DNA from: a virus
DNA length: 56,294 bases
Strand: one strand, 5' to 3'
Virus record (IMG/VR): IMGVR_UViG_3300020470_000006
Span: 1 to 56,294 of that record
A program made the translations under genes and the position numbers. The notes below the pieces were generated by a model, which was given only the letters and a program-made list of their open reading frames with translations, was not told the DNA's origin and did no database searches. The first letter of the stretch is position 1. Each line of letters begins with the position of its first letter. Shown one piece after another: positions 18,366 to 56,294 of this stretch.

Positions 18366-18399
18366 GGGTCATTGGATAAATTAGCAAATAGGTGAGAAA

Positions 18400-19014: not shown

Positions 19015-19023
19015 AGGCGAAAC

Positions 19024-19035
19024 TTTATGTATCGG
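19024..19035 (+). promoter_or_regulatory. Second-class promoter box (TTTATGTATCGG)
   Basis: Starts 32 nt before ATG 19056. It is the first of a series of TTTA(T/A)NTATC boxes in this window, and it decides the start codon of the following gene against the in-frame TTG at 19008. Confidence 0.75.
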
Positions 19036-19055
19036 AAAGTAAAACCTATCTTTTG

Positions 19056-19622
19056 ATGTTTGGAGTTGATGTTTTCGGCTATGGAGGATATACCTCTCCC
19101 ACTATTACTATGAAAAGGGCTGAATGGGCCGACATTGACCCTGTGGAAAAGCCAACAATCTATGAAAAGTGTATTTCCGATTCAGATTTTAATGATGGAT
19201 GGAATGAAACTCTTTCCGAAGGTGAAAATGTTATTGTAGAAGATAAGCAAAGTTTCAAGTCCATTTCTGTTCCTGATGGTTATGTGGTTAAACTATTTTC
19301 ACCTACGGCAGAAGAAGGTGATGACCCTATTTCAACCTACACAGGGCCGCAAAACGATAGTATTGGTTGTGATGTTGAAACCACCGACCTCGTTGGAAAA
19401 ATAATAGTGATTAAGCAACAAACTTGTGATGACCTAAACAGGGTCAAAGAAGATGAGGCAGGTTCAGATTATCTTTGTGGAGATTGTGCAGAAGGTTATG
19501 TTCTTGATGAGGATGAAGAAAGTGAAACTTACGGACAATGTGTTGAAGAAGATAATACATTATTGTATGCGGCAATTGGTGGTGTTAGCCTCCTTTTGCT
19601 CATCGCAGTCGTGAGTAGATAA
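19056..19622 (+). CDS. MFG-family tail-anchored surface protein 1
   Basis: The 188-residue protein starts MFGVDVFGYGG, the N-terminal signature shared with eight others. The middle is acidic and beta-like; a Cys motif LCGDCAEGYVLDEDE...YGQCV (about 146-171) resembles an EGF-like C-x-x-C...GY...C unit; it ends with a membrane helix LYAAIGGVSLLLLIAVV and a two-residue basic tail. No N-terminal signal peptide is visible, so insertion would be through the C-terminal helix. Starting at ATG 19056 is supported by the promoter box at 19024 and by the shared MFG motif. Probably a particle or surface protein (inference). Confidence 0.7.
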   Translation: MFGVDVFGYGGYTSPTITMKRAEWADIDPVEKPTIYEKCISDSDFNDGWNETLSEGENVIVEDKQSFKSISVPDGYVVKLFSPTAEEGDDPISTYTGPQNDSIGCDVETTDLVGKIIVIKQQTCDDLNRVKEDEAGSDYLCGDCAEGYVLDEDEESETYGQCVEEDNTLLYAAIGGVSLLLLIAVVSR

Positions 19623-19633
19623 TCCCCCATAGT

Positions 19634-19645
19634 TTTATCTATCGA
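19634..19645 (+). promoter_or_regulatory. Second-class promoter box (TTTATCTATCGA)
   Basis: Begins exactly 30 nt before ATG 19664, which yields the MLGNDLW family start. The ATG at 19652 would be only 18 nt away. Confidence 0.75.
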
Positions 19646-19663
19646 AACAGAATGTATTCATTT

Positions 19664-20503
19664 ATGCTTGGTAATGATTTGTGGGCTAATGTGAATTGGG
19701 TTAATACTTACAACCCTACCCCTAACCTCACTAAAGCGGCCGATACAATCTCATTTTCACAAGAATCTGAAGAACAATTTCCTTCAGAAGTAAAATGGAC
19801 TGATACTACCTTCACATATACTGTCCCTGCTGATAAGAGTATGCGAGTCCTCGTCAAATTGCCTTCTCAATTCATGCCATATATCGTTTCCTCAGATGGG
19901 TTAGCCTTCTACGATTTGACGAAGAAAATATTCAATAAATCTAAAACATCTCTCAGGATTGAATTAGGTCAGGGAGATAGCATCAATATTGGTGGTTCAA
20001 AAACTATTACGATGAATGATTATGGAAACTATCCTCAAGGGAAGCGATGGAAACACTTCAATGGGTATTTCAAGAAAATTAATGGGATAGATACATATTT
20101 CTCTCATTGGAGGCAACTTCAGCAATTCAAAAGGCCGATGGCAACACAAGTCGCCATGACTGTTCCATTATTTTCATTCACTTCTTGTGGAGTATCATAC
20201 TATCTTGATTGGAATAAGTTTGCTCAAGAAAGAAATATTGCTAAAGGCGCATTCAATGGTGAGTGGGGATACTCAACACCCAATAATCCTACTGATGGGG
20301 TGGCGGGACTTTATGAGGGTGCATCCATTGTAGAACTCGATTGGGGCAACTTGATTGATAGTCAAGGATGCTCATGCCCATCAGGATATGAGAAAGATGA
20401 AGATGGAAATTGTGTCCCGCTTGAAGAAGAAGATGAAGAGAATAATTGGTGGTTATTGGCAATCATAGCGGCCGTAGCGACATTCGGATTTATTGGTGGG
20501 TAG
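19664..20503 (+). CDS. MFG-family tail-anchored surface protein 2
   Basis: The 279-residue protein begins MLGNDLWANVNW, a variant of the family signature. A long beta-rich region (about 30-230) with many aromatic residues is followed by SCSCPSGYEKDEDGNC, a short EGF-like Cys motif, an acidic stretch and a C-terminal helix NWWLLAIIAAVATFGFIGG. It is the largest of the set and may be a main structural or receptor-type protein. Start chosen from the promoter box at 19634. Confidence 0.65.
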   Translation: MLGNDLWANVNWVNTYNPTPNLTKAADTISFSQESEEQFPSEVKWTDTTFTYTVPADKSMRVLVKLPSQFMPYIVSSDGLAFYDLTKKIFNKSKTSLRIELGQGDSINIGGSKTITMNDYGNYPQGKRWKHFNGYFKKINGIDTYFSHWRQLQQFKRPMATQVAMTVPLFSFTSCGVSYYLDWNKFAQERNIAKGAFNGEWGYSTPNNPTDGVAGLYEGASIVELDWGNLIDSQGCSCPSGYEKDEDGNCVPLEEEDEENNWWLLAIIAAVATFGFIGG

Positions 20504-20700
20504 CGTAAGGTTTAATTAGTTGAAACACAAAATCAACTATGAGCCTACTCTTTGTAATGGTTTTTTGTGTTAGTAGTTTTTCGCTTTAGATGATTGAGGA
20601 GGAAAGTAGCGTGGATAGGCTTTCGGGCTAAAGTCGCATCTTGAATGGCTCAACCTTATTCTCCCATAGTTTTAACTATCGAAACATTTCATCCCCTATT
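20504..20700 (+). other. Intergenic region: possible structured transcript or 16-residue peptide
   Basis: TTTAATTA at 20511 is placed 28 nt before an ATG (20539) that opens a 16-codon hydrophobic frame ending at 20589. After it comes GAGGAGGAAAGTAGCG and a hairpin GGCT-TTCG-GGCT (about 20617-20628) with a UUCG loop. This could be a small RNA, a leader peptide or only spacer. The promoter box of the next gene is at 20671. Confidence 0.25.
20671..20682 (+). promoter_or_regulatory. Second-class promoter box (TTTAACTATCGA)
   Basis: Begins 30 nt before ATG 20701 and decides it against the upstream in-frame codon at 20641. Confidence 0.75.
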
Positions 20701-21255
20701 ATGTTTGGCATAGATATTTTCAATTATGGAAATGTTGTGCAATTCAAAGGCGAAAATGATTACAGAACTATTGATGACTATGAGGGAATCAAATATTGGT
20801 GTATAGAGGGCGAATACAAAGATGATGGTAGCGGCACTAAGAAATTATGGGTAAATGGAATATCTGATGTAAAGCCACCACAAGGTAAGAACATCAATGA
20901 TAGGTTAAATCAAGAAACACCACATGGGGGGAGGTATGAAGAAAGCATTAGAGAAGTTTTCGACTATGATGAGGATTGGGTCGAAGATTGCACCAAAGCG
21001 AAACAAACTGTCGATGAACAGAATGCAGGGGAAAATGAAAGTAAAAATTGTTCCGATACAAACCAAGAAACCAAAGATGATGGCACTTGTGGAGAATGTT
21101 TAGATGGATATGTTCTCAATGATGATGACTCAAGTTCTGACTATGGAAAATGTGTAGAAGATGAAGAGGAAGAATCTGATAATCTGATACTCTATGGGAG
21201 TTTGATTGGAGTAGTAGGATTAGTCGTAATAATGGGTATAATGAGGAAAGGGTGA
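20701..21255 (+). CDS. MFG-family tail-anchored surface protein 3
   Basis: The 184-residue protein starts MFGIDIFNYG. After a polar, acidic domain there is NCSDTNQETKDDGTCGECL followed by GYVLNDD...YGKCV, the EGF-like stalk, then an acidic run and the helix LILYGSLIGVVGLVVIMGIM with a basic end (RKG). Very similar in layout to proteins 4 and 5, which follow directly. The three together look like duplicates diverged mainly in the N-terminal domain. Confidence 0.7.
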   Translation: MFGIDIFNYGNVVQFKGENDYRTIDDYEGIKYWCIEGEYKDDGSGTKKLWVNGISDVKPPQGKNINDRLNQETPHGGRYEESIREVFDYDEDWVEDCTKAKQTVDEQNAGENESKNCSDTNQETKDDGTCGECLDGYVLNDDDSSSDYGKCVEDEEEESDNLILYGSLIGVVGLVVIMGIMRKG

Positions 21256-21261
21256 TAATGA

Positions 21262-21858
21262 ATGTTCGGAATTGATACTTTTAATTATGGGCAAACATTC
21301 CATGCCCCCATAACAGATTATACCGACCCTGATGATGAGAAATATTATTGTATCACTCACCCCGACTTAGAGGAGGGGTATGATGCAAGCGAGTTATTCC
21401 TAACAGGGGGGAGAATCTTGTATATCAACGGAGATAATAACATCACCAATACAGACGGGAGTTTAATGAATCAACGATTGGATTCAATCTCGGATAGAGA
21501 ATACCTACCTGCGAGTTGGGCTAATGCAAGCCTGATACTTGAATTAGAAGGATTAGGATTTGTAAAGGATTGTGAAAAGGCACTACAACCACAGAACCAA
21601 AGTTCCAATAATCAAAATAACAACACCAACAATAACAACAACAATGCAAACGATAATTTGTGTGAAGATACAAACCAAGAAACAAACGAAGATGGTAGTT
21701 GTGGTGATTGCTTAGATGGATATGTCGTAGATGATAATGAAAATAGTGATTCTTACGGCTCTTGTGTAGAAGAAAGCGATGATGAGAATATGAATGATAT
21801 GATTCTTTATGGGGCTATTGGATTAGGTGCTTTGTTATTGATTAGTAGCATAATTTGA
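21262..21858 (+). CDS. MFG-family tail-anchored surface protein 4
   Basis: The 198-residue protein starts MFGIDTFNYG and contains an Asn-rich linker (about residues 114-134, mostly N with Q, S, T, A) before CEDTNQETNEDGSCGDCL, GYVVDDN...YGSCV and the helix MILYGAIGLGALLLISSII. The linker probably acts as a flexible stalk. It follows protein 3 by six bases without its own promoter box, so it is in the same operon. Confidence 0.7.
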   Translation: MFGIDTFNYGQTFHAPITDYTDPDDEKYYCITHPDLEEGYDASELFLTGGRILYINGDNNITNTDGSLMNQRLDSISDREYLPASWANASLILELEGLGFVKDCEKALQPQNQSSNNQNNNTNNNNNNANDNLCEDTNQETNEDGSCGDCLDGYVVDDNENSDSYGSCVEESDDENMNDMILYGAIGLGALLLISSII

Positions 21859-21867
21859 GGTGTAATG

Positions 21868-22593
21868 ATGTTTGGAGTAGATATATTCAATTATGGGCAT
21901 AATATTTCTTTTGCCAATGAAGAAAGTGGAACAACATCATGGTTCAATGGAACTAAGATTAAAATTGGGCGATATTGTATCACAGATGAATATAGATTTC
22001 AAAAAGGTGTAGAGGAAGGAAACAATGAAGAATTAGTCATAAATATGAATAAGGAATCAATTGTGTTATTCCCTAACGAATTGCCCGGCGGTGGTGCGAT
22101 GTTAAAAGCAATCTACATCCCCAATAATAAATATCGAATCACTATTAGCACCACTAATGGGGAGGAAGTGGTTCTCGATACGGCACAAAATATCGGATGC
22201 CTTGTTGGAATCATAAGTGGTGTAGCAGGTGATTCACTAAATCTCGATAACCAAGATTCAATTGACTCTATTAAAATTGAAGATAAAAATTGGGTTGAGT
22301 GCTTCAACCAAAACCGAATTGAGAATGATGATGGCTCATGTGGAGTTTGTGATAAGGGTTATTTTGAAAATAATAATCAAGAGTGCGTTACTTGTGCGGC
22401 CGCAAACCAACTTCAATTAGATGATAAAACCTGTGGAGGTTGTTTAGAAGGATTTGTAGTGGATGAAGTTGAAGGTAGTCCTACTTACGGACAATGTGTT
22501 TCTGAAACACCAAAAGATAACACACTTTTGTATGTTGGTGGGGGTCTTTTAGGTGTGGGAGTTCTTGCTTCAGTATTGATGGGTAAGAAGTAA
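21868..22593 (+). CDS. MFG-family tail-anchored surface protein 5
   Basis: The 241-residue protein starts MFGVDIFNYG (a second ATG three bases upstream would add one Met). It has two successive Cys modules: DDGSCGVCDKGYFENNNQEC and a later DDKTCGGCLEGFVVDE...YGQCV, then the helix LLYVGGGLLGVGVLASVLMG and a KK tail. The doubled module shows that the stalk is a repeatable unit. Third gene of the operon starting at 20701. Confidence 0.7.
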   Translation: MFGVDIFNYGHNISFANEESGTTSWFNGTKIKIGRYCITDEYRFQKGVEEGNNEELVINMNKESIVLFPNELPGGGAMLKAIYIPNNKYRITISTTNGEEVVLDTAQNIGCLVGIISGVAGDSLNLDNQDSIDSIKIEDKNWVECFNQNRIENDDGSCGVCDKGYFENNNQECVTCAAANQLQLDDKTCGGCLEGFVVDEVEGSPTYGQCVSETPKDNTLLYVGGGLLGVGVLASVLMGKK

Positions 22594-22596
22594 AGA

Positions 22597-22608
22597 TTTA
22601 TGTATCGG
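22597..22608 (+). promoter_or_regulatory. Second-class promoter box (TTTATGTATCGG)
   Basis: Begins 29 nt before GTG 22626 and 41 nt before ATG 22638; GAAGGAG between them could be a ribosome site for the ATG. Confidence 0.65.
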
Positions 22609-22625
22609 AAGCGATTAGTGAAGGA

Positions 22626-22883
22626 GTGTTGAATAATATGAACCCGTTTGAACTACCTATCAAATATTACAAAACTGAAGATAAGCCAATCCATAAATTA
22701 GGCTACACTCTTGCACTTGGTATGATTGGAGTAGGAGTTGTAGAAACCGTTCACTCACTACCTTACATTTTCAAAGGTCAAAGTAATTTTACACAAATGG
22801 CATTAGGGCCTTTAGGTGTAGTTGCAGGTGGATACATGGCTTACTTGTATCTAAATGAAGCAGGTGTAGTTGGGGGATATTAA
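22626..22883 (+). CDS. Membrane protein with two or three helices (up to 85 aa)
   Basis: Hydrophobic segments at about residues 27-45 (GYTLALGMIGVGVVETV) and 58-82 (LGPLGVVAGGYMAYLYL) predict a small multi-pass membrane protein. It lacks the MFG signature but shares the promoter class and lies within the family cluster, so it is likely a partner, perhaps a membrane scaffold. Start GTG 22626 or ATG 22638. The size and layout resemble the membrane protein at 48604. Confidence 0.6.
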   Translation: MLNNMNPFELPIKYYKTEDKPIHKLGYTLALGMIGVGVVETVHSLPYIFKGQSNFTQMALGPLGVVAGGYMAYLYLNEAGVVGGY

Positions 22884-22892
22884 GCCCAACCC

Positions 22893-22904
22893 TTTATCTA
22901 TCAG
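22893..22904 (+). promoter_or_regulatory. Second-class promoter box (TTTATCTATCAG)
   Basis: Begins exactly 30 nt before ATG 22923. Confidence 0.75.
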
Positions 22905-22922
22905 AAACAATTCATGTGAGTT

Positions 22923-23711
22923 ATGGTGTTTGGAAATCAACTCATTGATTTTGCCGCTAATAGTATAATCAAAGACGACAACCAACCATCTGTGTTCGTA
23001 ATAGATGAACCACTAAAACTGAATGTGGAACAAATAACAGTTTCAGAATCGGGTTGGGTATTCACCGTTTCCTTAGAAAATAATTCATGGATAGGTTGTG
23101 GGCCTGATGATGAACAAGGAAACCTTGTTGATTGGGGGGTGTGTGTTAGTTATGATAAAAATGAATATACCACAAAACAAATTGAAAAACTGCTGAAAGA
23201 AATAATTATACAAGGGCAAGAAAATCTCCAACAACAACAAGAATATGAAGAGAAACTAAGCGATTGGAATAAGAGGAAGGAAGATTGTGAATCGCAAATT
23301 AAAGAGGGTTCAACATTTCAATGGGTGAATAGGGATAGAAATGATGCCCCCGATATAGGCCCTATTGATGAAGATTGGTATTGTTTAGAAACAATAACGG
23401 CCATAGAAAATGAGGTTGAAGGAGAAGCGACACCTGACGAGGGGGAGGGTGAGGAGGATGACGAGGAAGTATCCACCACTACTGTTCCTGTGGTAAGTTC
23501 TCAAAGTAAGAATAAAATCAGTATTGGGTTTGGAAGTGGTTTCAAAGATGTCCTCAACAAAGGGTTGTTAGGAATCGGTATATTGGTTATTGGTTATGGG
23601 GCATACAAGGTAGAGGAAAGGTCATCTCTATTCTCTAATTTATTCAAAAAAATCGTGCCTAAAAAAGATGCGAGTTATGAGGGCAAAAAAAATGGGCCTC
23701 AAAAGGCATAG
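22923..23711 (+). CDS. MFG-family tail-anchored surface protein 6
   Basis: The 262-residue protein starts MVFGNQLIDFA. A beta-rich domain with two Trp-containing strands is followed by a coiled-coil-like segment (about 80-125, rich in Q, E and K), an acidic linker (EGEGEEDDEEV) and a membrane helix KGLLGIGILVIGYGAYKV near residue 220. A basic cytosolic tail of about 35 residues (FKKIVPKKDASYEGKKNG) follows, longer than in proteins 1-5. It has Cys residues but no clear EGF-like unit. Confidence 0.65.
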   Translation: MVFGNQLIDFAANSIIKDDNQPSVFVIDEPLKLNVEQITVSESGWVFTVSLENNSWIGCGPDDEQGNLVDWGVCVSYDKNEYTTKQIEKLLKEIIIQGQENLQQQQEYEEKLSDWNKRKEDCESQIKEGSTFQWVNRDRNDAPDIGPIDEDWYCLETITAIENEVEGEATPDEGEGEEDDEEVSTTTVPVVSSQSKNKISIGFGSGFKDVLNKGLLGIGILVIGYGAYKVEERSSLFSNLFKKIVPKKDASYEGKKNGPQKA

Positions 23712-23715
23712 AAAA

Positions 23716-23734
23716 AATAGGAAAAAGACCTATT
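23716..23734 (+). terminator. Possible terminator hairpin
   Basis: AATAGG and CCTATT form a six-pair stem with a purine loop just after the stop of the previous gene. There is no strong T-run after it, so it may instead be an mRNA end-stabilising hairpin. Confidence 0.3.
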
Positions 23735-23783
23735 AATCCCAATCCTTAAATATGATGAGTAATCAATCCCCCAAACCATCATC

Positions 23784-23795
23784 TTTATCTATCAG
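23784..23795 (+). promoter_or_regulatory. Second-class promoter box (TTTATCTATCAG)
   Basis: Begins 31 nt before ATG 23815. A TTAAATA box at 23746 lies further upstream, so this gene may have two promoters of different classes. Confidence 0.7.
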
Positions 23796-23814
23796 CATGG
23801 TTGATTAGATGAGT

Positions 23815-24543
23815 ATGGTGTTTGGAAATCAGAGTTGGGATTTACCTAATTGGAGAGTAAGTTCAAGCCCCATACCTATGAGGGGGGCTACAACTCAACC
23901 TACAAAGGTTGTTTCATATCTGAGTGATGGTGAAGAACTTCCTACTCTAAGTTCTGATGAAAGGATAAATGAGAATGGCTATATCACTAATGCACCAAAA
24001 GAGTTGGCCGCAGGGGATTTCCTACACCGAATTGTGTATGCAACGGGCGGCTCAGGTAATTTCCAAATTATTATGGACTCTAAGTTCACAGATAATTGTG
24101 GGGGAGGCGTTTCATCATTTTCACACCATCATTATACCTCAAAAAAAGTGCGAGATAACGAACTACCTGAGAGGATAAGTTATTTGGAAGATAGTTGTGA
24201 TGAGCCTTTTGTGGAATATGGTGAACATTATTGGGTCGATGAAACGCAAGGCCCATTTACGGTTGGGTGTGAAGATGTAGATGCAGATAATTTTTCTGAA
24301 GATGCTGATTATTATGATGATTCTTTATGCACCTATTCCTGTAATGACCCAAATAGGAATGTTACGGATGTAGGGGCTTGTGGCGATTGTAAAGAAGGTT
24401 ATGAATTAAATGATGATGGGGTGTGTGAACAAGGCATCGCAAGTAGATTTGTAACGGGAATCAAAGACCTTCCCTGGGAAATGATGGGGGCAGGTTTAGC
24501 ACTCTTGGTTATGGCAAGATTTGTTTTAGGAGGAAAAAAATAA
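23815..24543 (+). CDS. MFG-family tail-anchored surface protein 7
   Basis: The 242-residue protein starts MVFGNQSWDLPNW. A His/Cys-containing beta domain is followed by an acidic segment, CNDPNRNVTDVGACGDC with KEGYELNDDGVCEQG (the EGF-like unit), and a C-terminal helix WEMMGAGLALLVMARFVLG with GKK. Start ATG 23815 is chosen over ATG 23809 by the family motif. The last base of its stop is the first base of the next small gene. Confidence 0.65.
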   Translation: MVFGNQSWDLPNWRVSSSPIPMRGATTQPTKVVSYLSDGEELPTLSSDERINENGYITNAPKELAAGDFLHRIVYATGGSGNFQIIMDSKFTDNCGGGVSSFSHHHYTSKKVRDNELPERISYLEDSCDEPFVEYGEHYWVDETQGPFTVGCEDVDADNFSEDADYYDDSLCTYSCNDPNRNVTDVGACGDCKEGYELNDDGVCEQGIASRFVTGIKDLPWEMMGAGLALLVMARFVLGGKK

Positions 24544-24689
24544 TGAAATTGAATAGTGATGGATTTAACCTTGATGTAAATGTGGAAAAATATACGGCTA
24601 TTGCCTTTGGCTTGGTGGGTGTTTTGGCACTTTATTACAGGACAAGGTATAAAATGTTGAAAAATAAATTGAGTAAATTAGGTGATTGA
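24543..24689 (+). CDS. Single-pass micro-protein (48 aa)
   Basis: MKLNSDGFNLDVNVEKY then a hydrophobic helix (TAIAFGLVGVLALYY) and a basic tail (RTRYKMLKNKLSKLG). Its start overlaps the stop of protein 7 and its stop overlaps the next gene, so it is translated as part of the cluster. A likely small membrane partner. Confidence 0.6.
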   Translation: MKLNSDGFNLDVNVEKYTAIAFGLVGVLALYYRTRYKMLKNKLSKLGD

Positions 24690-24690
24690 T

Positions 24691-25056
24691 TTGGTGTTCG
24701 GCCACGACCCATTCAACCATCTTGTGTTCAATCTCAAGGCTGAAGAAAAACCAAAAGTATCTTTGAAAGAACTTTTGGATTCTGACCCTTATGGTGCGCT
24801 AAAGGCTAATTTCTCGATTGGTGGGAGTTGGGATGCTCAAGGTAATGTTGTGGTTCTTGCAGAAGGGGATGGATTCTATGTTATTACGAATAATGATTGG
24901 GAATTGAAAGTTAGAGTTAAGGATTTAGGAACAGGAGAAACACAAATCTTGGTTGCCAATAGTAAGAACCCTGCAATTGAGGCAGAAGGAAATAATGTCG
25001 CAGTCAGGATTCTCGCACTCAAAGGGCCTGATGTATCATTTTCATATCCCGCCTGA
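24691..25056 (+). CDS. MFG-family protein 8, without membrane helix
   Basis: The 121-residue protein starts (M)VFGHDPFNHLVFNL from TTG 24691 (GTG 24682 and GTG 24694 are alternatives). The remainder is a compact beta-rich domain (GSWDAQGNVVVLAEG, YVITNNDWELKVRVKD) ending in SFSYPA with no transmembrane segment or Cys motif. It keeps the family N-terminus without the anchor, which argues that the N-terminal motif itself has a role, such as targeting or assembly. Confidence 0.55.
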   Translation: MVFGHDPFNHLVFNLKAEEKPKVSLKELLDSDPYGALKANFSIGGSWDAQGNVVVLAEGDGFYVITNNDWELKVRVKDLGTGETQILVANSKNPAIEAEGNNVAVRILALKGPDVSFSYPA

Positions 25057-25116
25057 CGAAAACCTTATTAGGGTGATTAGAGGAAGGTATAATGCTGAAA
25101 GGCGGAGATTGATAAA

Positions 25117-25440
25117 ATGAAAAGATACAGATTTGGAATATGGCCTAACCATGCAATTTGGAATAACTATGAATCAGATTGGATGAAAAGGCATCAAGAC
25201 ATTATGAATGCGGCATTCGGTTCATTGGGAGAACAAGCCCCAAAGATGGATGTAAATGAAGTAGCAACAATTACGCTGAAGAAGGATGGTAGGATTTACA
25301 AGGTTAAAATCCAAGATATTACTGACCTTCAAGAAGAAAAGGATGAAATCATTTCTATTGAGATTGATTCTTCTAAGGATGATGCTCAGGCTGAAAATAA
25401 GAATGATAGTGCTGATGCTAATGACTATTACACCGAATGA
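25117..25440 (+). CDS. Hypothetical protein with acidic tail (107 aa)
   Basis: Starts MKRYRFGIWPNHAIWNNYE, with an F-G-x-x-P-N pattern only loosely like the MFG family. A small beta domain (VATITLKKDGRIYKVKIQD) and a strongly acidic C-terminus follow. It overlaps the next zinc-ribbon gene by 20 nt. Function unknown. Confidence 0.5.
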   Translation: MKRYRFGIWPNHAIWNNYESDWMKRHQDIMNAAFGSLGEQAPKMDVNEVATITLKKDGRIYKVKIQDITDLQEEKDEIISIEIDSSKDDAQAENKNDSADANDYYTE

Positions 25441-25582
25441 GTTTCCACTAAAAATTACTTGTCCTGTTTGTTCCTCTTGCCGAAAGACAAGGGAAATCAA
25501 ATTAGTAAATGATACCTACGAATGTGGGTGTGGATATGCAATCACTACGAAGGGTTTGATGATTAAAAGTAAAAACCGATGA
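25421..25582 (+). CDS. Small zinc-ribbon protein (53 aa)
   Basis: CPVCSSCRK and a later YECGCGYA form one zinc ribbon; the layout resembles small RNA-polymerase-associated ribbons. It begins inside the end of the previous gene. Function unknown. Confidence 0.55.
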   Translation: MTITPNEFPLKITCPVCSSCRKTREIKLVNDTYECGCGYAITTKGLMIKSKNR

Positions 25583-25619
25583 AATGAGTAGAAAATGAAC
25601 AGGAATTGTTCGGCAAAGA

Positions 25620-25626
25620 TTTAATA
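25620..25626 (+). promoter_or_regulatory. TATA box of the flap-nuclease gene
   Basis: TTTAATA begins 30 nt before ATG 25650, deciding it against the GTG at 25629. Confidence 0.7.
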
Positions 25627-25649
25627 GAGTGAACATTGATTTCTCTCTA

Positions 25650-26444
25650 ATGGCGACATTGTTAATTGACGGAGGATACTTTGTTGGCCGATTTGAAAAA
25701 CATTGGTGGAACAACCCACGAAGAAAAAATATGAAGTATTGGTGGGAACAAGGAAAAAAACACCTGATTTCTAAAGAAGAAAGAGATAATCACCTCCACA
25801 GATTATTTTCCTATGATTTGGGATACCTACAAATGAAAATCAATGAACTCGGATTCGTGAGTGAAATTATCGTTTGCTATGATGGTATCTATGGTCGAAG
25901 GCCGAGAGGGGCAGTTTATCCTGAATACAAACAGAATCGGAGGGGTGGAGTTTTGGCTACCGAACATAAGGGAATAGATGTGAGGGAAAGAATCAAAAAA
26001 ACACTACACAATCCTGATGCTTTGGTGTTAGGGTGGAAGGCATTGTATGATGAAAATATGGAGGCTGATGACTTGATTGGGGAATACTGTTTGAATGCAC
26101 CTGAGAGTGAAGATATAATTGTGATGAGTAAAGACAAAGATTTACTCCAATTGATGTGTATGCCTAATGTTGAAATCCATGATTTTACTAACTTGATAAC
26201 TAAAAAAATGTTCTTAGAGGAACATGGTGTTGAGCCTGAACAATATCTTGACTTGAAGGCGTTGGCGGGAGATAAATCCGACAATATTCCGGGCATAAAG
26301 GGGGTTGGCCCGAAAACTGCCGCAAAGTATTTAACTGAGTATGGAAGGATTGAAGATTTCCCCCCTGAAATCCTAAATGCTGAGGACTTAATCAGGGTGA
26401 AAAAATGGAAATCTATCTCTAAAGTTCCTTTCCATCAGTATTAA
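25650..26444 (+). CDS. 5'-3' exonuclease / flap endonuclease, bacterial-phage type
   Basis: The 264-residue protein begins MATLLIDGGYF (metal-binding Asp), continues with FVSEIIVCYDG, YPEYKQNRR, MEADDLIG (about 137-144) and SKDKDLLQL, and has the helix-hairpin-helix LAGDKSDNIPGIKGVGPKTA (about 205-224). These are the motifs of the N-terminal nuclease of bacterial PolI and of T5/T4-type flap nucleases, not of archaeal Fen1. It removes primers or flaps during replication. A cellular archaeon would use Fen1, so this gene was probably acquired from a bacterial or phage pool. Confidence 0.9.
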   Translation: MATLLIDGGYFVGRFEKHWWNNPRRKNMKYWWEQGKKHLISKEERDNHLHRLFSYDLGYLQMKINELGFVSEIIVCYDGIYGRRPRGAVYPEYKQNRRGGVLATEHKGIDVRERIKKTLHNPDALVLGWKALYDENMEADDLIGEYCLNAPESEDIIVMSKDKDLLQLMCMPNVEIHDFTNLITKKMFLEEHGVEPEQYLDLKALAGDKSDNIPGIKGVGPKTAAKYLTEYGRIEDFPPEILNAEDLIRVKKWKSISKVPFHQY

Positions 26445-26447
26445 ATA
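26441..26447 (+). promoter_or_regulatory. TATA box of the gene at 26471
   Basis: TTAAATA begins exactly 30 nt before ATG 26471, deciding it against the TTG at 26468. The box overlaps the stop codon of the flap-nuclease gene. Confidence 0.75.
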
Positions 26448-26470
26448 GGTCATACGGAGATGATTGGTTG

Positions 26471-26929
26471 ATGTCGGTTAGAAAACGATTTAGCAAACGG
26501 CTTTTTGAAGATAATGATGACCTTGCGAGGATTACTGTGGAAAAATTAAGACACCACTTTGGCGTAGATGAGTTCAAAGATTCCAAAACAAGATATACAG
26601 TAGATAGAGAAGGGTGGAGAGAGAATAAACATTTGATGAATGTAGAAGTAGAAGTTAAGCATAATTGGAAAAAGGGAATGAAAGAGTTTCCTTATGAAAC
26701 GATTCACTTACCTCAACGGAAGGAAAAATATCTCAATATGGAACAACCCACTCATTTTGTAATCTTTAGTTCTGACTTAGGAGGGGCGATTGTATTTTCT
26801 GATAGAACTGTAAATGAATATGGTGAATTGAAGGAAGTTCCCAATAAGTTTGTCCCAAAGGGTGAAATGTTTTTCAATATTCCTGTGGATAAAACTGCAT
26901 GGTTGAAACTTGGTGTGGAGGAGGTCTAA
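26471..26929 (+). CDS. Possible PD-(D/E)XK-like nuclease (152 aa)
   Basis: VEVEVKHNW (residues 58-66) gives an E-x-K core strand, followed by FPYETIHLPQRKEKYL and THFVIFSSDLGGAIVF, a layout seen in small restriction-endonuclease-like proteins on mobile elements. The upstream Asp may be in the segment DEFKDSKTRYTVDREGW. Enzyme activity is inferred. It follows the flap nuclease and begins a run of three overlapping or adjacent genes. Confidence 0.5.
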   Translation: MSVRKRFSKRLFEDNDDLARITVEKLRHHFGVDEFKDSKTRYTVDREGWRENKHLMNVEVEVKHNWKKGMKEFPYETIHLPQRKEKYLNMEQPTHFVIFSSDLGGAIVFSDRTVNEYGELKEVPNKFVPKGEMFFNIPVDKTAWLKLGVEEV

Positions 26930-26931
26930 TT

Positions 26932-27189
26932 ATGGATTTGTTAATTTGTGAAGCCACCTTGAATGAATATATCGAAATGACTTCAATTGGAGGAGATTTA
27001 GAACACAAAGGAGTTCACAATTTATTGAAAGATTTTGCTATGTTAGGGTATTTGTTTCGGAGTAATCATACAATTACGCTACTAAATGGGAAGGTTAATA
27101 GTGAAGATGATGAAGATTATCAAAAATACCTTGATTTGAAAGCAAGCGGAATGCAACCTGATAATTGGGAGGATATGGAACATGATTGA
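26932..27189 (+). CDS. Hypothetical protein (85 aa)
   Basis: Small acidic protein, not recognised. ATG 26932 is preferred because it follows GGAGGAGGT; upstream in-frame codons lie inside the previous gene. It overlaps the next gene by eight bases. Confidence 0.5.
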   Translation: MDLLICEATLNEYIEMTSIGGDLEHKGVHNLLKDFAMLGYLFRSNHTITLLNGKVNSEDDEDYQKYLDLKASGMQPDNWEDMEHD

Positions 27190-27556
27190 ATTAGAATCAA
27201 TTTTTTTCCAAATATTACAACCTCACAAACACTTATTGAATCAAATGAGTAGGGAAGATATAGAAAATCTTTCACTCGGAATCAATGAGTTCATTATGAA
27301 GCGGGATGAGGAAGTATATGATTTCTCTAAGCATGACCTCTTGTTTGGTGAAGTATTCGCTTACAATTTGAATGAACTTCAAATACATGAGGGAACAGAA
27401 TGGTTAGATGTAGATTTCTTTGATTTTTCATCATGTGTAGGTGCGGGAATAAACATGACCCTTAAACAAATGATTGAAGGACAAGGTTTTCAAATATTTG
27501 AATGTAATGGGAATGATGTTATCACTTGGGATTCAGGCATCAGCCTTGATGAATAA
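27182..27556 (+). CDS. Hypothetical acidic protein (124 aa)
   Basis: An acidic helical N-terminal half and a mixed C-terminal half; no signal or membrane segment and no known motif. It ends one base before the convergent minus-strand gene, so the two share a tail-to-tail junction at 27556/27557. Confidence 0.5.
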   Translation: MIELESIFFQILQPHKHLLNQMSREDIENLSLGINEFIMKRDEEVYDFSKHDLLFGEVFAYNLNELQIHEGTEWLDVDFFDFSSCVGAGINMTLKQMIEGQGFQIFECNGNDVITWDSGISLDE

Positions 27557-27805
27557 TCATTCTAAAGGATGTGGGACATTTTTATCTCCCAAAGTCCATC
27601 TTAGCGTTTTCACAACACCTTGCATAGCCTTGAAGTTCCGAGCGTGATACCACCAATCTTTAGATTTTGGCCTACAATTATTCATCCCAACAGAATGATG
27701 ATTTAATTGTCTTTCCGCCTTATCAAGCATATTCTCAATATCATCCCATGTTCGATTATATGAAAAACAATCGGATTCTTGATGGTCGGACAGTAATTTT
27801 CCCAT
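27557..27805 (-). CDS. Hypothetical protein (82 aa)
   Basis: Basic helical protein with His, Trp and Cys residues (WWYHARNFK, LRWTLGDKN). A minus-strand TTAAATA starting at 27833 lies 28 nt before the ATG, supporting it as a real gene. It is divergent from the gene at 27890, with both promoters inside 85 bases. Function unknown. Confidence 0.55.
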   Translation of the reverse strand: MGKLLSDHQESDCFSYNRTWDDIENMLDKAERQLNHHSVGMNNCRPKSKDWWYHARNFKAMQGVVKTLRWTLGDKNVPHPLE

Positions 27806-27826
27806 GAGGTGCGGTTTATGTTCATC

Positions 27827-27833
27827 TATTTAA
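27827..27833 (-). promoter_or_regulatory. TATA box of the minus-strand gene at 27805
   Basis: TTAAATA on the minus strand, 28 nt before the ATG. Confidence 0.6.
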
Positions 27834-27859
27834 GGCTTAGGGGTGTGAGGGGAGAAAGG

Positions 27860-27866
27860 TTTAATA
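27860..27866 (+). promoter_or_regulatory. TATA box of the gene at 27890
   Basis: TTTAATA begins exactly 30 nt before ATG 27890; divergent from the box at 27833, leaving about 26 bp between them. Confidence 0.7.
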
Positions 27867-27889
27867 ATCAGATTCTACTCCATTGAGTT

Positions 27890-28567
27890 ATGCAAACATA
27901 CCGATACTCATTTAATCCTGAAGGAAAAACTAAGGTAGAAGGAAAATCCTACCTTACAATGACGGGTTATTTTCCAAAAATCGGAAAAAGAAAAACTATT
28001 CCAATCGAACTTTCTGAATATTGGATTAGCGATGAAAACCCTGAAGATACCTATGGGTCGGTAAGAAACATAGGAAGGGTGGTATTACAAGATGCAACAA
28101 GAGATTATCACAGAGAACTGAACCGTAAGGGTCATCAATATGAATATGATTATGGAGATAGAATGTGGGAATGTTTCATCTATATTGAAGGGTATTCTCA
28201 ATTCCAAACATGGACTTTCATTAAGGCTATTATCAAAAAAGGCCGATTTGTAGAACAAACAGGGAGTAAATATATGTTCGACATTGAGAAAATCGTGCAA
28301 AAAGAGAGAGGTGGCGAGGATGAGAATGTTGAGATTAACCATCGAGGGGGCAGAGGATTTAATTACAAAATCAAAACCCAAAGAGAAACCTTAGAAAATA
28401 TTATTGAAGCGGCAGAGAATAGCATTGGGCGGAAAAAATACCAAGTGGTTAAACATGAAATTGAGCCTGAACCTGACCCATACATTGAGGATAAAAAAAG
28501 ATGGCGAATACCTATCATTGGAGGGGCGGTTGCTTTGGCAAGTGCCTTGATTTACCGAAACAAATGA
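27890..28567 (+). CDS. Tail-anchored hypothetical protein (225 aa)
   Basis: A soluble region of about 200 residues with many aromatic and charged residues (YLTMTGYFPKIGKRKT, WTFIKAIIKKGRFVEQ) ends in a C-terminal helix RWRIPIIGGAVALASALIY with a basic RNK end. The layout is like the MFG proteins but without the N-terminal signature and with an ordinary TATA box. Function unknown. Confidence 0.6.
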   Translation: MQTYRYSFNPEGKTKVEGKSYLTMTGYFPKIGKRKTIPIELSEYWISDENPEDTYGSVRNIGRVVLQDATRDYHRELNRKGHQYEYDYGDRMWECFIYIEGYSQFQTWTFIKAIIKKGRFVEQTGSKYMFDIEKIVQKERGGEDENVEINHRGGRGFNYKIKTQRETLENIIEAAENSIGRKKYQVVKHEIEPEPDPYIEDKKRWRIPIIGGAVALASALIYRNK

Positions 28568-28998
28568 GAGAAATATTTAAGAATGTGAAGAGTATCCTCT
28601 GTAATATGGAACAATACAGAAATGCCGCAGGGTGTGTAGTTTTCGATGAAGATAAGGTCTTACTTTTGAGAAGGTCTAAATTAGAAACATCTAAACATGG
28701 ACTCTACGAATTGCCCGGTGGGAAGCAAGAGGATAATGAAAATCCTATGGATACTGCCCGAACCGAAACAGAAGAAGAATCGGGATTGGTGGTTAAGGTT
28801 ATTAAAAAACTCGACCCTCATATCGACCACAATATGAAAAAAATATATCATGGTTTTACTGCCATTATTGAAGGTGAAAACAATGTGCAATTATCTGAAG
28901 AACATGATGAATACAAATGGATGACGATTAGGGAAGCATTGAGTATGAGTGAACCTCTTAGTCATCACGCAGAATACTTATTCAAGCAAATCGTCTAA
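28564..28998 (+). CDS. Nudix hydrolase
   Basis: The Nudix box is readable as GGKQEDNENPMDTARTETEE followed by ESGL: G-x5-E-x7-(T)-E-x-x-E-E-x-G-L, with Thr in place of the usual Arg before the first Glu. The preceding NAAGCVVFDEDKVLLLRRSK is the typical start of the fold. Nudix enzymes clean or hydrolyse nucleoside diphosphate derivatives. ATG 28564 overlaps the stop of the previous gene by four bases; an internal ATG 28606 is an alternative. Confidence 0.88.
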   Translation: MREIFKNVKSILCNMEQYRNAAGCVVFDEDKVLLLRRSKLETSKHGLYELPGGKQEDNENPMDTARTETEEESGLVVKVIKKLDPHIDHNMKKIYHGFTAIIEGENNVQLSEEHDEYKWMTIREALSMSEPLSHHAEYLFKQIV

Positions 28999-29005
28999 CC
29001 GACCT

Positions 29006-29017
29006 TTTATGTATCAG
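29006..29017 (+). promoter_or_regulatory. Second-class promoter box (TTTATGTATCAG)
   Basis: Begins exactly 30 nt before ATG 29036, deciding it against the in-frame codon at 29027. Confidence 0.75.
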
Positions 29018-29035
29018 AAGCATTAAGTGAACTTT

Positions 29036-29659
29036 ATGTCGTTTGGAAATAATACCATTGATTTTAGAGGACTTGGAATTAAGAAACCTGCCATGAATGT
29101 TTTCCAAGCCTCAATGGTGGCAGTAGCGACACCCCACACCACAACAGTTGAAAACGCAGTTCAAGTGCAACCGAGATACCAAATTGAGTATGATTGGGAA
29201 ACCAACCCCGATGGTTTAGATGCCAATAGTGGAATAGCAGGTCAGCCAATATCTGAACCTCTCACAATTGTATCGAATGATTCCAATACAAGCGGAACTA
29301 ACGAAATAACCATAGTTCAAGACAATCCTGATAATACCTCTACGAATAATGAAGAAACGATTCAAGAAGAGAACAACTCCAATAGTGAACAAGATGCTAC
29401 TACCTCAACATCCACAGAGAGTGGGATGTCGAGAGGCGATGAAGAAGCACTTGCACGAAAAGAGGATGAAACTCATGTAAAGGGAGGAACACAAGAACTC
29501 TCTAACCAAAATGAGGAATCAAATACAGAAAATGTTGCAGTCCTAAGTTTATCACTTATTGCTATTGGTGGTCTTGCTTATTATTTGGAAAGTAAAAATA
29601 AAACATTTACTAAGTTGTATGGTGATTTGAGTAAGAGATTTTCCAAATCAGTTAAGTAG
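29036..29659 (+). CDS. MFG-family tail-anchored surface protein 9
   Basis: The 207-residue protein starts MSFGNNTIDFRGLG. A long Ser/Thr/Asn/Glu-rich segment (about 75-165), probably a disordered and possibly glycosylated stalk, leads to the helix VAVLSLSLIAIGGLAYYL and a basic tail (SKNKTFTKLYGDLSKRFSKS). No Cys motif. It lies 4 kb from the main cluster, between Nudix and ERCC4 genes, yet has the same promoter box, so promoter and N-terminus travel together. Confidence 0.65.
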   Translation: MSFGNNTIDFRGLGIKKPAMNVFQASMVAVATPHTTTVENAVQVQPRYQIEYDWETNPDGLDANSGIAGQPISEPLTIVSNDSNTSGTNEITIVQDNPDNTSTNNEETIQEENNSNSEQDATTSTSTESGMSRGDEEALARKEDETHVKGGTQELSNQNEESNTENVAVLSLSLIAIGGLAYYLESKNKTFTKLYGDLSKRFSKSVK

Positions 29660-49035: not shown

Positions 49036-49302
49036 ATGGGTGAAATAGATTCTGAAACTCTTGATGAAGATAAAATAGAAGATAAGGAAATCCCCTCAGA
49101 TGAGTGGGTTGGTATGCCTGAGTTCAATCAACAAAAGAAAGAACCATTCAGTAAAATCATTATTCGATTTGAAACGGCTGAGGATTTGGAGGAGTTTGCC
49201 GAAATGATTGGGCAGAAATTAACGCCTAAGACCAAGAGTATTTGGCATCCTTATCGGCCACATAGGAGTGGAGTTGTGAGGAGATGGGTCGATGAATCCT
49301 GA
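49036..49302 (+). CDS. Conserved phage-type hypothetical protein (88 aa)
   Basis: DEWVGMPEFNQQ, then IIIRFETAEDLEEFAEMIGQ and TKSIWHPYRPH, is a pattern that I recognise from phage and plasmid genes of unknown function, often next to the glycosyltransferase that follows here. It overlaps that gene by 11 nt. A CTAATAAG TATA-like box lies about 31 nt upstream. No activity known. Confidence 0.65.
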   Translation: MGEIDSETLDEDKIEDKEIPSDEWVGMPEFNQQKKEPFSKIIIRFETAEDLEEFAEMIGQKLTPKTKSIWHPYRPHRSGVVRRWVDES

Positions 49303-50194
49303 ATATCCTATCTATGTGGTTTCCAAAGGTCGATGGAAAAGTAGATTGACGGTAAAGGCATTGGAATATATGAAAGTTCCTTATCACCTTATTGTCGAAG
49401 CATCCGAATATGAAGAATATGCTAAGGTTGTGGATGCTGAGAAAATATTGGTTACTCCTGAAAAATACAACAAAGAATATGATGTTTTTTGGGATGATGA
49501 TGACCCACGAATCGGACCCGGTGCGGCAAGGAACTTCGCATGGGAACATTCCATCGAGAGAGGATATGATTGGCATTGGGTCATGGATGATAATTTAGAT
49601 GCCTTCCATAGATTAAATAGAAATACTAAAGCGTTGGTTACGAGTGGGACAATCTTCAAGTGTATGGAAGATTTCGTTCAGAGATATGATAATATCGCCA
49701 TAGCAGGGCCAAATTATTATTCTTTTTGTAAGGCTAATGATGCTCTCCCACCATTCGTGAAAAATACAAGAATATACAGTTGCCTCCTTATCCGAAACGA
49801 TATTCCTTATCGGTGGAGGGGGCGGTATAATGAAGATACAGATTTATCATTAAGGGTTCTCAAAGATGGATGGGCTACTCTCCAATTCAATGCTTTCTTA
49901 CAAGGAAAAGTTACTACTCAGAGAATGAGTGGAGGCAACCATCAACAATTTTACTCTCAAGATGGAACTTACTTGAAATCTAAGATGTTAGAAGATATGC
50001 ACCCTGATGTAGCAAAGGTGGTATGGAGATTCAATAGATGGCATCATCATGTTAATTACAAACCTTTTAAGGAAAATAAATTAGTTAGAAAGAAGGACAT
50101 CGAAATCCCAACAGGTATCAATAATTATGGCCTTCGACTAATTGAAAGTAGTGAATATCCCGCAGATATTAAGGAATGGAGGAGTAAAAAATGA
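49292..50194 (+). CDS. TET-associated-type glycosyltransferase (GT-A fold)
   Basis: The 300-residue protein starts YPIYVVSKGRWKSRLTVKAL, then WDDDDPRIGPGAARNFAWEH, the metal motif MDDN (98-101) and RYNEDTDLSLRVLKDGW (about 178-194). These match the phage family described as TET/JBP-associated glycosyltransferases, proposed to glucosylate hydroxymethylated bases. No TET/JBP oxygenase is in the window, so either it lies outside or the acceptor differs. The last four bases overlap the methyltransferase gene. Confidence 0.8.
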   Translation: MNPEYPIYVVSKGRWKSRLTVKALEYMKVPYHLIVEASEYEEYAKVVDAEKILVTPEKYNKEYDVFWDDDDPRIGPGAARNFAWEHSIERGYDWHWVMDDNLDAFHRLNRNTKALVTSGTIFKCMEDFVQRYDNIAIAGPNYYSFCKANDALPPFVKNTRIYSCLLIRNDIPYRWRGRYNEDTDLSLRVLKDGWATLQFNAFLQGKVTTQRMSGGNHQQFYSQDGTYLKSKMLEDMHPDVAKVVWRFNRWHHHVNYKPFKENKLVRKKDIEIPTGINNYGLRLIESSEYPADIKEWRSKK

Positions 50195-51330: not shown

Positions 51331-51407
51331 GGGTCTATGGCGCAGTCAGGTAGCGCAACGGGCTTTTAACCCGTTGGTCTTGGGTTCAAATCCCAATAGA
51401 CCCTCCA
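51331..51407 (+). tRNA. tRNA-Lys (anticodon TTT)
   Basis: The 77-nt sequence folds to a complete cloverleaf: acceptor GGGTCTA/TAGACCC, D arm GCGC...GCGC, anticodon stem ACGGG/CCCGT with loop CTTTTAA (anticodon TTT, reads AAA and AAG), T arm TTGGG/CCCAA with GTTCAAATC-like loop, and CCA encoded. The discriminator base is T, unusual for tRNA-Lys. AAA codons are frequent in the window. First of three tRNA genes in 300 bases. Confidence 0.93.
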
Positions 51408-51431
51408 ACACACCACCATACCAAACATTAA

Positions 51432-51448
51432 TAAGGGAGTAGCCCTTA
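51432..51448 (+). terminator. Possible hairpin after tRNA-Lys
   Basis: TAAGGG/CCCTTA stem with loop AGTAG between the first and second tRNA genes. It overlaps a TTAATAAG element (about 51428) that could be a promoter for the second tRNA, so its role is unclear. Confidence 0.25.
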
Positions 51449-51459
51449 GACAATAATAC

Positions 51460-51536
51460 GGGGATGTAGTTTAATCAGGAAAAACAACCGTTTGCGGAAC
51501 GGGAAACTGCGGGTTCAAATCCCGCCTTCTCCACCA
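51460..51536 (+). tRNA. tRNA with anticodon GCG (Arg by anticodon; Ala-like acceptor stem)
   Basis: The 77-nt sequence has acceptor GGGGATG/CTTCTCC, a D arm, anticodon stem ACCGT/ACGGG with loop TTGCGGA (anticodon GCG, reads CGC/CGU), T arm GCGGG/CCCGC and encoded CCA. The acceptor stem has G3-T70 wobble, A73 and a T6-T67 mismatch. G3-U70 with A73 is the main identity signal for alanyl-tRNA synthetase, so its charging is uncertain. Stem pairing around the anticodon is weaker (A27/G43). Confidence 0.8.
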
Positions 51537-51552
51537 ACTCTTAAATCAATAT

Positions 51553-51629
51553 GGGCGTATAGTGTAGTTTGGATAGCACATTGGCCTCCTAAGCCGATAA
51601 CAGGGGTTCAAATCCCCTTATGCCCGCCA
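51553..51629 (+). tRNA. tRNA-Arg (anticodon CCT)
   Basis: Complete 77-nt cloverleaf: acceptor GGGCGTA/TATGCCC, D arm GTGT...GCAC, anticodon stem TTGGC/GCCGA with loop CTCCTAA (anticodon CCT, reads AGG), T arm AGGGG/CCCCT, discriminator G and encoded CCA. AGG is a common Arg codon in this window, so the gene probably supports element translation. Its last 22 bases overlap the 3' end of the minus-strand gene. Confidence 0.93.
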
Positions 51630-53421: not shown

Positions 53422-53433
53422 TTTATGTATCAG
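53422..53433 (+). promoter_or_regulatory. Second-class promoter box (TTTATGTATCAG)
   Basis: Begins exactly 30 nt before ATG 53452. An ATG at 53425 lies inside this box, so it cannot be the start if the box is the promoter. Confidence 0.75.
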
Positions 53434-53451: not shown

Positions 53452-55299
53452 ATGCCTCAAGGTTGGGACAAGATTTTATTAGGTGGTTTGGGGGCATTAG
53501 TCGCCTTCAAGGGTCTTGACCTATTAACTAAACCTAAATCACGATTTAGTGCGGAAGATTGGAGTGGAAGCCAAGATGATATTCCGATTGCAGTTGATTA
53601 TTTCTGCGCTCTTGAAGTATTGAAAAATAATGGTAAAATGAAACAAGGAAAAAAAGGTCAATACCAACAAGCAGTAAAAATGGTTCAAAATCAAATTACT
53701 CAAGGGGCTTTTCCATTCTTGATATTCAATCGGAAACAAACCGTTTTCTTGATGAATCTTATCAATGATAGGCTAATCCATTACAATGAGAAGTTTCATA
53801 GTGAAGGTAGAAAAAGTGTCGAAAAAATGGTAGAAATGTTGAAGCCACGATTGATGCAAGTATCTTCTAAAGAATTGAATAATTACTTTGCTCAACAAGC
53901 CTTGAAGGTAGAATTGAGAGGATTGCCTCCACTACCGCAAGGAACTACGAACAATGGAGTCCGAGTTAGGTTCGCCCCGAATCCGAATGGCCCACTTAGT
54001 ATGGGACACTCTTTTGGTATCATCGTGAATAATACTTATGCAAACGCATACAATGGAGATTACATTCTTAGATTCGATGATACTGACCCCGACCAAAAAA
54101 GGCCATTAAGAGAATTATATCCTCAAATTATTGAAGAGTTTGAGTTCTTGACTGATAGAACAGAAGATGATTATGAACTTCATATCGCTTCTGAAAATAA
54201 AGAGAGATACATTTCTCTTGCTCGGAAATTGATTGGTGAGGGAAAGGCTTATGTATCATGTATCCCACATAAGATATTTGCAGAAGAATATCAACAATAT
54301 TTGACTCCTGAAGAAATTGCAGAAGGAAAAACACCTCTTCAATCTGCACAAGCAAAATCGAATCCTGATAGAGAAAAATCTATTGAAACTAATTTGAAAC
54401 AATTCGATGAAATGGTAGAAACGGGAAGTTATGTTGCAGAGGATGGCACATTATGTTCTCCAACACAAGGACACTTTATCAAGATAGGACAAGAAGCCAA
54501 AGTTTATGAAGAGGTGGGAACAATAGTTCCTACGGTTTATTTGAAAACTCCATTAGATACAGGAAAATCTAAGTGGAGAGATATTAAAATTATGAGGGCT
54601 ACTGCACGAAGCCACCCTAATGAAACAGGGTTTGTTTGGCCTTATTTGGCGTTTCAAGGTGCTATTGACGACCACGATTTGAGAATCACACACATGATTA
54701 GAGGGTCGGACTTGTGGGAAACCGAAGAAGCCTATCCTTTCATTTGGAATGCTCTTGGGTGGGATTTAAGTGGACTCCCAACTTTCCTATATTGGCCGAG
54801 ATTATTCTTCAAGGACTTTTCAATACCATACACCGATTTGGAAACAGGAGATAAAAAATATTTGAAAGCCATAGGAACATCTAAAATGGCTCTCTTGATT
54901 GCGAACCAACCTGAGTTTCAAGGAAATTGGTGTAATCCTTTGTTCCCAACCGTTTGTTCCTACATGGCTAAAGGGTATCCCGCTTCCTACTTACAGGACT
55001 TTTGGTTAGAGGATGTGTGGGGGCAAACCTTCCCATTCTTTAATGGTGAAAAAATAGCGATGAAGAAAGACGGGAAAGTTGTCGGAGAGATACCTGCACT
55101 CAGCAAAATTATGAGTGAGGCCAAGATTTCAATGAGAGAAGGTGCAGGGAGTTTAGGTGCTAAACCTAATTACAGGAAGAATCAAGCACAAGTTCCTTAT
55201 CCACTTACTAAAGATGGTGGGATGAGAGGTGTGCCGACTATTACACCAAATACGATAAGAGAGTATGAGCCACGACCTATCCCAATGATTCCTGTTTGA
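53452..55299 (+). CDS. Membrane-anchored glutamyl-tRNA-synthetase-like protein
   Basis: The 615-residue protein has an N-terminal membrane helix (ILLGGLGALVAFKGLDLL, about 8-25), a helical region to about 165, and a class I synthetase domain of archaeal GluRS type. It reads RFAPNPNGPLSMGH (R173-H186; HIGH-like), ILRFDDTDP, FQGAIDDHDLRITHMIRGSD and IGTSKM (about 474-479; KMSKS-like). Only about 135 residues follow, shorter than an anticodon-binding domain and ending in a Pro-rich tail. It may charge tRNA, or transfer glutamate or glutamine to something other than translation at a membrane. Co-regulated with the MFG set by its promoter box. Confidence 0.8.
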   Translation: MPQGWDKILLGGLGALVAFKGLDLLTKPKSRFSAEDWSGSQDDIPIAVDYFCALEVLKNNGKMKQGKKGQYQQAVKMVQNQITQGAFPFLIFNRKQTVFLMNLINDRLIHYNEKFHSEGRKSVEKMVEMLKPRLMQVSSKELNNYFAQQALKVELRGLPPLPQGTTNNGVRVRFAPNPNGPLSMGHSFGIIVNNTYANAYNGDYILRFDDTDPDQKRPLRELYPQIIEEFEFLTDRTEDDYELHIASENKERYISLARKLIGEGKAYVSCIPHKIFAEEYQQYLTPEEIAEGKTPLQSAQAKSNPDREKSIETNLKQFDEMVETGSYVAEDGTLCSPTQGHFIKIGQEAKVYEEVGTIVPTVYLKTPLDTGKSKWRDIKIMRATARSHPNETGFVWPYLAFQGAIDDHDLRITHMIRGSDLWETEEAYPFIWNALGWDLSGLPTFLYWPRLFFKDFSIPYTDLETGDKKYLKAIGTSKMALLIANQPEFQGNWCNPLFPTVCSYMAKGYPASYLQDFWLEDVWGQTFPFFNGEKIAMKKDGKVVGEIPALSKIMSEAKISMREGAGSLGAKPNYRKNQAQVPYPLTKDGGMRGVPTITPNTIREYEPRPIPMIPV

Positions 55300-55572: not shown

Positions 55573-55639
55573 ATAGTAGTAAGTTCAAACATTAAGGTAG
55601 AGGGAACAGAGGGTTCTCTATGAACGAAATGTGAACAAT

Positions 55640-56294
<655 letters not shown>

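Follow-up and report, generated by a model that had tools for sequence, protein, structure and literature searches.

Synthetases carried by viruses are usually taken to be translation boosters. The Hokovirus GlnRS, the Edafosvirus GlnRS-like protein, the Yasminevirus GluRS and the HGTV-1 LysRS, one of them archaeal, are virus-carried like the protein described here. Other synthetase descendants, EpmA/PoxA among them, are paralogs that modify proteins, and have an amino-acid-activating core that works without canonical use of tRNA. The closest relatives by type are archaeal GluRS (gltX_arch, PRK04156, 3aii), with which the viral protein has in common an N-terminal helical domain, a class I core and the motifs PNPNGPL[ST]xGH, DDTD and a TS-type KMSKS, and GluQ-RS (YadB), a GluRS paralog which likewise has no anticodon-binding domain. 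GluQ-RS forms Glu-AMP without tRNA (PMC12736043); in ordinary GluRS, activation requires tRNA (PMC7373986).

We analyzed a 56,294-nt stretch of viral DNA (IMG/VR record IMGVR_UViG_3300020470_000006; hereafter the window) which carries a GluRS-derived gene near one end. We propose, at a probability of roughly 45%, that its product is a captured host GluRS which no longer charges tRNA canonically and has become a late protein, associated with assembly or with the membrane, that probably still activates glutamate. No viral GluRS of such a design is described in the open-access literature we searched. The gene has the following features:

53422 to 53431, + strand: promoter box TTTATGTATC of the surface/late class, 30 nt 5′ of the ATG at 53452
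53452 to 55299, + strand: GluRS-derived gene encoding 615 aa; its open frame runs from 53425, within the promoter
53452 to 53556, + strand: new 35-aa leader MPQGWDKILLGGLGALVAFKGLDLLTKPKSRFSAE, a short hydrophobic stretch and a basic stretch, then FSAE
53557 to 53934, + strand: divergent archaeal GluRS N-terminal helical domain (hhalign and AF2)
53935 to 55014, + strand: class I GluRS catalytic (Rossmann) core, including the acceptor-binding insert and the stem-contact region
53968 to 54030, + strand: HIGH block RFAPNPNGPLSMGHSFGIIVN (host PNPNGPL[ST]xGH[SA]R; R is replaced by F and I by V)
54076 to 54087, + strand: DDTD motif, without variation in the 78 host enzymes and the two viral proteins
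54874 to 54885, + strand: KMSKS-equivalent GTSK (host STS)
54928 to 54975, + strand: stem-contact region, host WDDPRLPT...RRRG replaced by viral WCNPLFPT...MAKG
55015 to 55296, + strand: tail of about 94 aa instead of the anticodon-binding domain, predicted mostly disordered

An archaeal GluRS-type protein without the anticodon-binding domain

The first-pass annotation had assigned the protein to the archaeal GluRS type, and family models, profile alignment and predicted fold all agree with this. The viral protein matches Pfam tRNA-synt_1c (2.7e-29) and the NCBIfam archaeal GluRS models PRK04156 (6.9e-54) and gltX_arch (3.6e-41), and hhalign aligns aa 53-530 to a Poseidoniales GluRS profile with an E-value of 1.5e-56. 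Archaeal GluRS 3aii is the closest solved structure in both sequence and fold, and is the first fold match in the structural comparison that the annotation had suggested (E 4.8e-18 with the AF2 model). The curated cut-offs for whole proteins are missed (TIGR00463, 141.3 vs 401.75 bits; PRK04156, 183.4 vs 516), and GluQRS models match far more weakly (at best 8.5e-14, with 51.6 bits vs a cut-off of 250).

About 140 N-terminal residues had been described as unknown; most of them turn out to be the ancestral GluRS N-terminal helical domain, and only the first 35 are new. In the full-length hhalign alignment this domain is colinear with archaeal GluRS from aa 53 on (the N-terminal part alone gives a weak match, p 0.0036), and AF2 models most of its helices with pLDDT of about 90. 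At the other end, hhalign stops at aa 530, corresponding to column 406 of the 588 in the profile, and AF2 shows no ordered domain past residue 547, with pLDDT <50 from 548 on. The host anticodon-binding domain, a C-terminal β-barrel of roughly 180 residues, is thus absent, as the first-pass annotation had supposed.

Relatives, origin and selection

A 123-kb relative (L003/G001) encodes a GluRS which is 55% identical over its full length and shares the leader-core-tail architecture, the tail being 40-44% identical. A further record, G002 (L004), shows no difference from G001 in that part of the gene which both contain, and our count of independent viral sequences is two (the window and G001). 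Scans of viral sequences with single proteins returned no relatives; scans with two-virus alignments returned G001 and G002 alone for GluRS, and for two other proteins one further record of 34 kb (IMG/VR 3300027779_002523).

The source was most likely the GluRS of an archaeal host of the Poseidoniales. This assignment comes from similarity rank and from the HIGH-block signature PNPNGPL[ST] rather than from the tree: in a first tree the virus grouped with long GlnRS-like rows, a placement we rejected, and a mixture-model tree without those rows settled no host clade (AU p 0.465). The host comparison set comprised 78 cellular archaeal GluRS; the Poseidoniales enzymes are L083-L162.

The viral stem is very long, at 3.8 changes per site vs a median of 0.26 for host tips. 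Such fast divergence is what a decaying passenger gene would show, but both independent viral lineages have an intact gene, with its promoter and start geometry kept. The nonsynonymous distance between the two viruses is 0.20-0.25 in the core with synonymous sites saturated, and the leader and tail are constrained as well (pN of about 0.2-0.4 including them, vs saturated pS). We therefore regard decay as extremely improbable.

Promoter class and start codon

In the 56,294-nt window, the + strand has nine copies of the 10-base box TTTA[AT]NTATC and the − strand none, with 0.8 expected (Poisson p of about 2e-7). These boxes stand about 30 nt 5′ of the start codons of surface- and membrane-type proteins. 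A guessed TATA pattern had no matches. One of the nine precedes the GluRS gene: the in-frame ATG at 53425 falls inside this box and the ATG at 53452 is at +30, and we therefore place the start at 53452. The relative has this box too, again at a spacing of 30, ahead of MDSRWK in its GluRS gene, which bears out both the start that the first-pass annotation had used and, since the box is that of the surface proteins, its assignment of the gene to a second promoter class shared with them. A separate upstream gene, with a start near 53900 for the synthetase, goes against both this geometry and the full-length conservation of leader, N-terminal domain, core and tail in the relative: this is one gene, not two.

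The surface-protein family itself occupies 19008-29659 of the window. Its members start with MFGxDxFNYG or M(V)FGNQ, many lie behind a TTTA[AT]NTATC box and several have a C-terminal hydrophobic segment.

The leader

The leader reads MPQGWDKILLGGLGALVAFKGLDLLTKPKSR followed by FSAE. It is found in none of the 78 cellular GluRS, and among the synthetases of other viral contigs that we checked none has a comparable N-terminal hydrophobic leader; the relative has the same fusion, with a leader 51% identical that ends in YLAE instead of FSAE. Host GluRS start with M-[DSE]-W exactly at the residue after the leader, which therefore replaces the initiator Met, and in both viruses the junction follows the pattern [FY]xAE|DWSG. 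A membrane anchor had been claimed for this region. The leader is hydrophobic; as a transmembrane helix it is borderline, with Kyte-Doolittle values of 1.68/1.37 over 19 residues, a Wimley-White octanol value of about +0.2 and pLDDT <50 in the AF2 model.

The end of the leader recalls a motif, AExFEA/FxAE, that is strongly enriched in structural-type proteins of the relative. In those of G001, AE[TSED]F[EGSN][AS] occurs 28 times vs 0.1 expected. Copies of the form AE[TSED]F[EG]A (L165-L168; G001 18191-24381 and 37952-70351) often lie between apparent modules and right after CNTCGC-type N-termini, and look like polyprotein or propeptide cleavage sites. The GluRS leaders hold only the shorter half of the motif (FSAED and YLAED), the full AExFEA not being found in them. 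In the two viruses this half-motif directly follows the hydrophobic stretch, which suggests a cleaved propeptide, and the leader may be a virion-targeting sequence which is removed during particle maturation. Cleavage after AE would give back a host-like N-terminus, DW, although DW may have been kept simply as an ancestral feature. Pfam and PHROGs searches of selected G001 proteins identified no maturation protease, the one hit being a general peptidase match, phrog_4191.

Active site and tRNA-binding features

Residue numbers such as R197 and D409 are counted in a 624-aa frame. The viral protein contains the host-type motifs RFAPNPNGPLSMGHS, DDTD and GTSK; the HIGH, DDT and KMSKS-type motifs are thus kept as host variants, apart from R197F and S484G. 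The SMGH form of HIGH had been considered as a sign of inactivation and was ruled out as such, host enzymes likewise having S or T at that position (PNPNGPL[ST]xGH in Poseidoniales). Loss of catalytic residues in relatives, which would have spoken against a synthetase, is not what we see: the protein of the 123-kb relative keeps RFAPNPNGPLSMGHS, DDTD and IRG. Among positions near-invariant in the host enzymes (at least 95% of the 78), the viral proteins retain 25 of the 30 that fall in the HIGH/DDT block vs 43 of the 112 elsewhere; the Fisher p of 1e-5 is indicative, as the limits of the block were set after viewing the alignment. R182 and R426, which by mapping from T. thermophilus GluRS we take to hold the substrate glutamate, are also kept. 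Near the glutamate pocket, both viruses carry L407Y, D409A and S412G; together with the change of the KMSKS-like S484 to G, these substitutions may weaken activation or alter specificity.

Elsewhere, conserved basic residues are lost in both viruses (R197, R258, R307, R372, K428, R435, K436, R506, K535, R558 and K619). The elements RRRG and DDPR have disappeared as well, and the catalytic domain has a net charge of −16/−9 vs a host mean of −1.4. Judging by the architecture of the enzyme class, several of the lost residues presumably face the tRNA. Conservation, charge and textbook topology together argue against ordinary tRNA charging.

These same losses, with D409A, S412G and S484G, the leader and the surface/structural promoter class, could also be accommodated by a main rival explanation in which the GluRS fold serves as a building block of the virion or membrane matrix, does no catalysis and keeps its active site as a relict or a ligand-binding stabilizer. 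There is a precedent in the mimivirus genomic fibre, which is reported to be formed by GMC-type oxidoreductases (PMC9512402). However, a purely structural role would not require that the best-kept parts over so long a branch be the Arg pair that binds glutamate and the HIGH/DDT block, and we consider it unlikely, if a serious contender.

A GluQ-RS-like enzyme that glutamylates a modified tRNA base would account for the missing domain, GluQ-RS being likewise a catalytic-domain-only GluRS paralog (PMC12736043), and many viral contigs do contain short GluRS-like genes of about 265-315 aa with no room for an anticodon-binding domain (L029, L034, L036 and L043-L079). We think this very unlikely here: the viral protein descends from archaeal GluRS, with an N-terminal domain and a leader, it matches GluQRS models at 8.5e-14 at best vs 6.9e-54 for the archaeal family, and the conserved basic residues are gone.

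tRNA genes and genomic neighborhood

About 2 kb from the GluRS gene, at 51331-51629 of the window, lie genes for tRNA-Lys(TTT), tRNA-Arg(GCG) and tRNA-Arg(CCT). The relative has Arg-TCT, Arg-GCG and Arg-CCT at the equivalent place and Ala-TGC elsewhere. Neither the window nor the 123-kb relative yielded a tRNA-Glu; we accordingly rejected the cluster as the substrate of the GluRS, and the earlier suggestion that the protein modifies these tRNAs finds no support as a glutamate link. The absence of tRNA-Glu also bears on the idea of a working synthetase of unusual design, which would charge tRNA-Glu or mischarge other tRNAs near the membrane and so aid late viral translation. Viruses do carry synthetases (giant-virus GluRS and GlnRS, HGTV-1 LysRS), the N-terminal domain and the acceptor-binding insert are retained, and tRNA genes are close by; but the tRNAs of the two viruses are for Lys, Arg and Ala, not Glu, the promoter is of the surface/structural class, and the protein has lost the anticodon domain, RRRG, DDPR and other basic residues and has an acidic catalytic domain. 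We judge this reading quite unlikely.

The GluRS gene of the relative adjoins that of a complete 566-aa TSP3-repeat protein; in the window, a TSP3-repeat protein (55631-56294), which contains a long GQ repeat, runs off the end. Apart from a SAP domain, the 2084-aa protein at 31456-37710 matches no family strongly; it is 37% identical over 706 residues to an 1822-aa protein of the relative. A TET-associated glycosyltransferase (TAGT) match (6e-48) lies at 49292-50194. The relative also encodes a HerA/FtsK-type ATPase (PHROG 2666 'terminase large subunit', 1.4e-18), PolD DP2, many proteins with terminal hydrophobic segments and an ArsA/Get3-like ATPase (G001 75342-76568; L168 15342-16568), possibly a virus-borne tail-anchor insertion factor, given the many tail-anchored surface proteins.

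Proposed function

Since the parts that grip tRNA are lost, the glutamate/ATP site is kept, a leader is gained and the promoter is that of surface proteins, the captured GluRS has probably been reused beyond ordinary tRNA charging. The history we envisage would have begun with capture of an archaeal host GluRS, likely from Poseidoniales, acquisition of the 35-residue leader exactly where the initiator Met stood, and placement of the gene under a surface/structural-protein promoter. Loss of the anticodon-binding domain and of many basic residues outside the active site, with strong divergence and then purifying selection, would have accompanied the abandonment of canonical tRNA charging. The present protein would act late, beside the membrane or within the assembling particle, its leader serving as a targeting or propeptide sequence that may be cut after [FY]xAE. 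It would still bind glutamate and ATP and probably make glutamyl-adenylate without tRNA, as GluQ-RS does; retention of the adenylate block with loss of canonical tRNA features fits such a diversion. A virion protein or some other non-canonical acceptor could then receive the glutamyl group. We infer the location, the cleavage, the tRNA independence and the acceptor from these sequence patterns, and the most specific version, a leader-targeted synthetase descendant inside an archaeal virion, cut at [FY]xAE|DW and glutamylating a virion or host target free of tRNA, seems doubtful to us.

In these viruses, whose hosts are abundant but uncultured marine archaea, the locus offers a testable case of how a core enzyme of translation can come to serve viral assembly or modification.

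Comparison with known synthetases

The viral protein belongs among virus-borne and paralogous synthetases, kinds that are already known. The synthetases of Hokovirus, Edafosvirus, Yasminevirus and HGTV-1 match it in fold at 12-20% identity. EpmA/PoxA is unlike it in being a class II enzyme, in using lysine and in having a known protein target. GluQ-RS differs in being of bacterial type and about 300 aa long, with no N-terminal domain or leader, and in acting on the queuosine of tRNA-Asp. Compared with archaeal GluRS, the viral protein has neither the anticodon domain nor many of the conserved basic residues, and is set apart by its 35-aa leader, its glutamate-pocket changes, its very long branch and its surface-class viral promoter.
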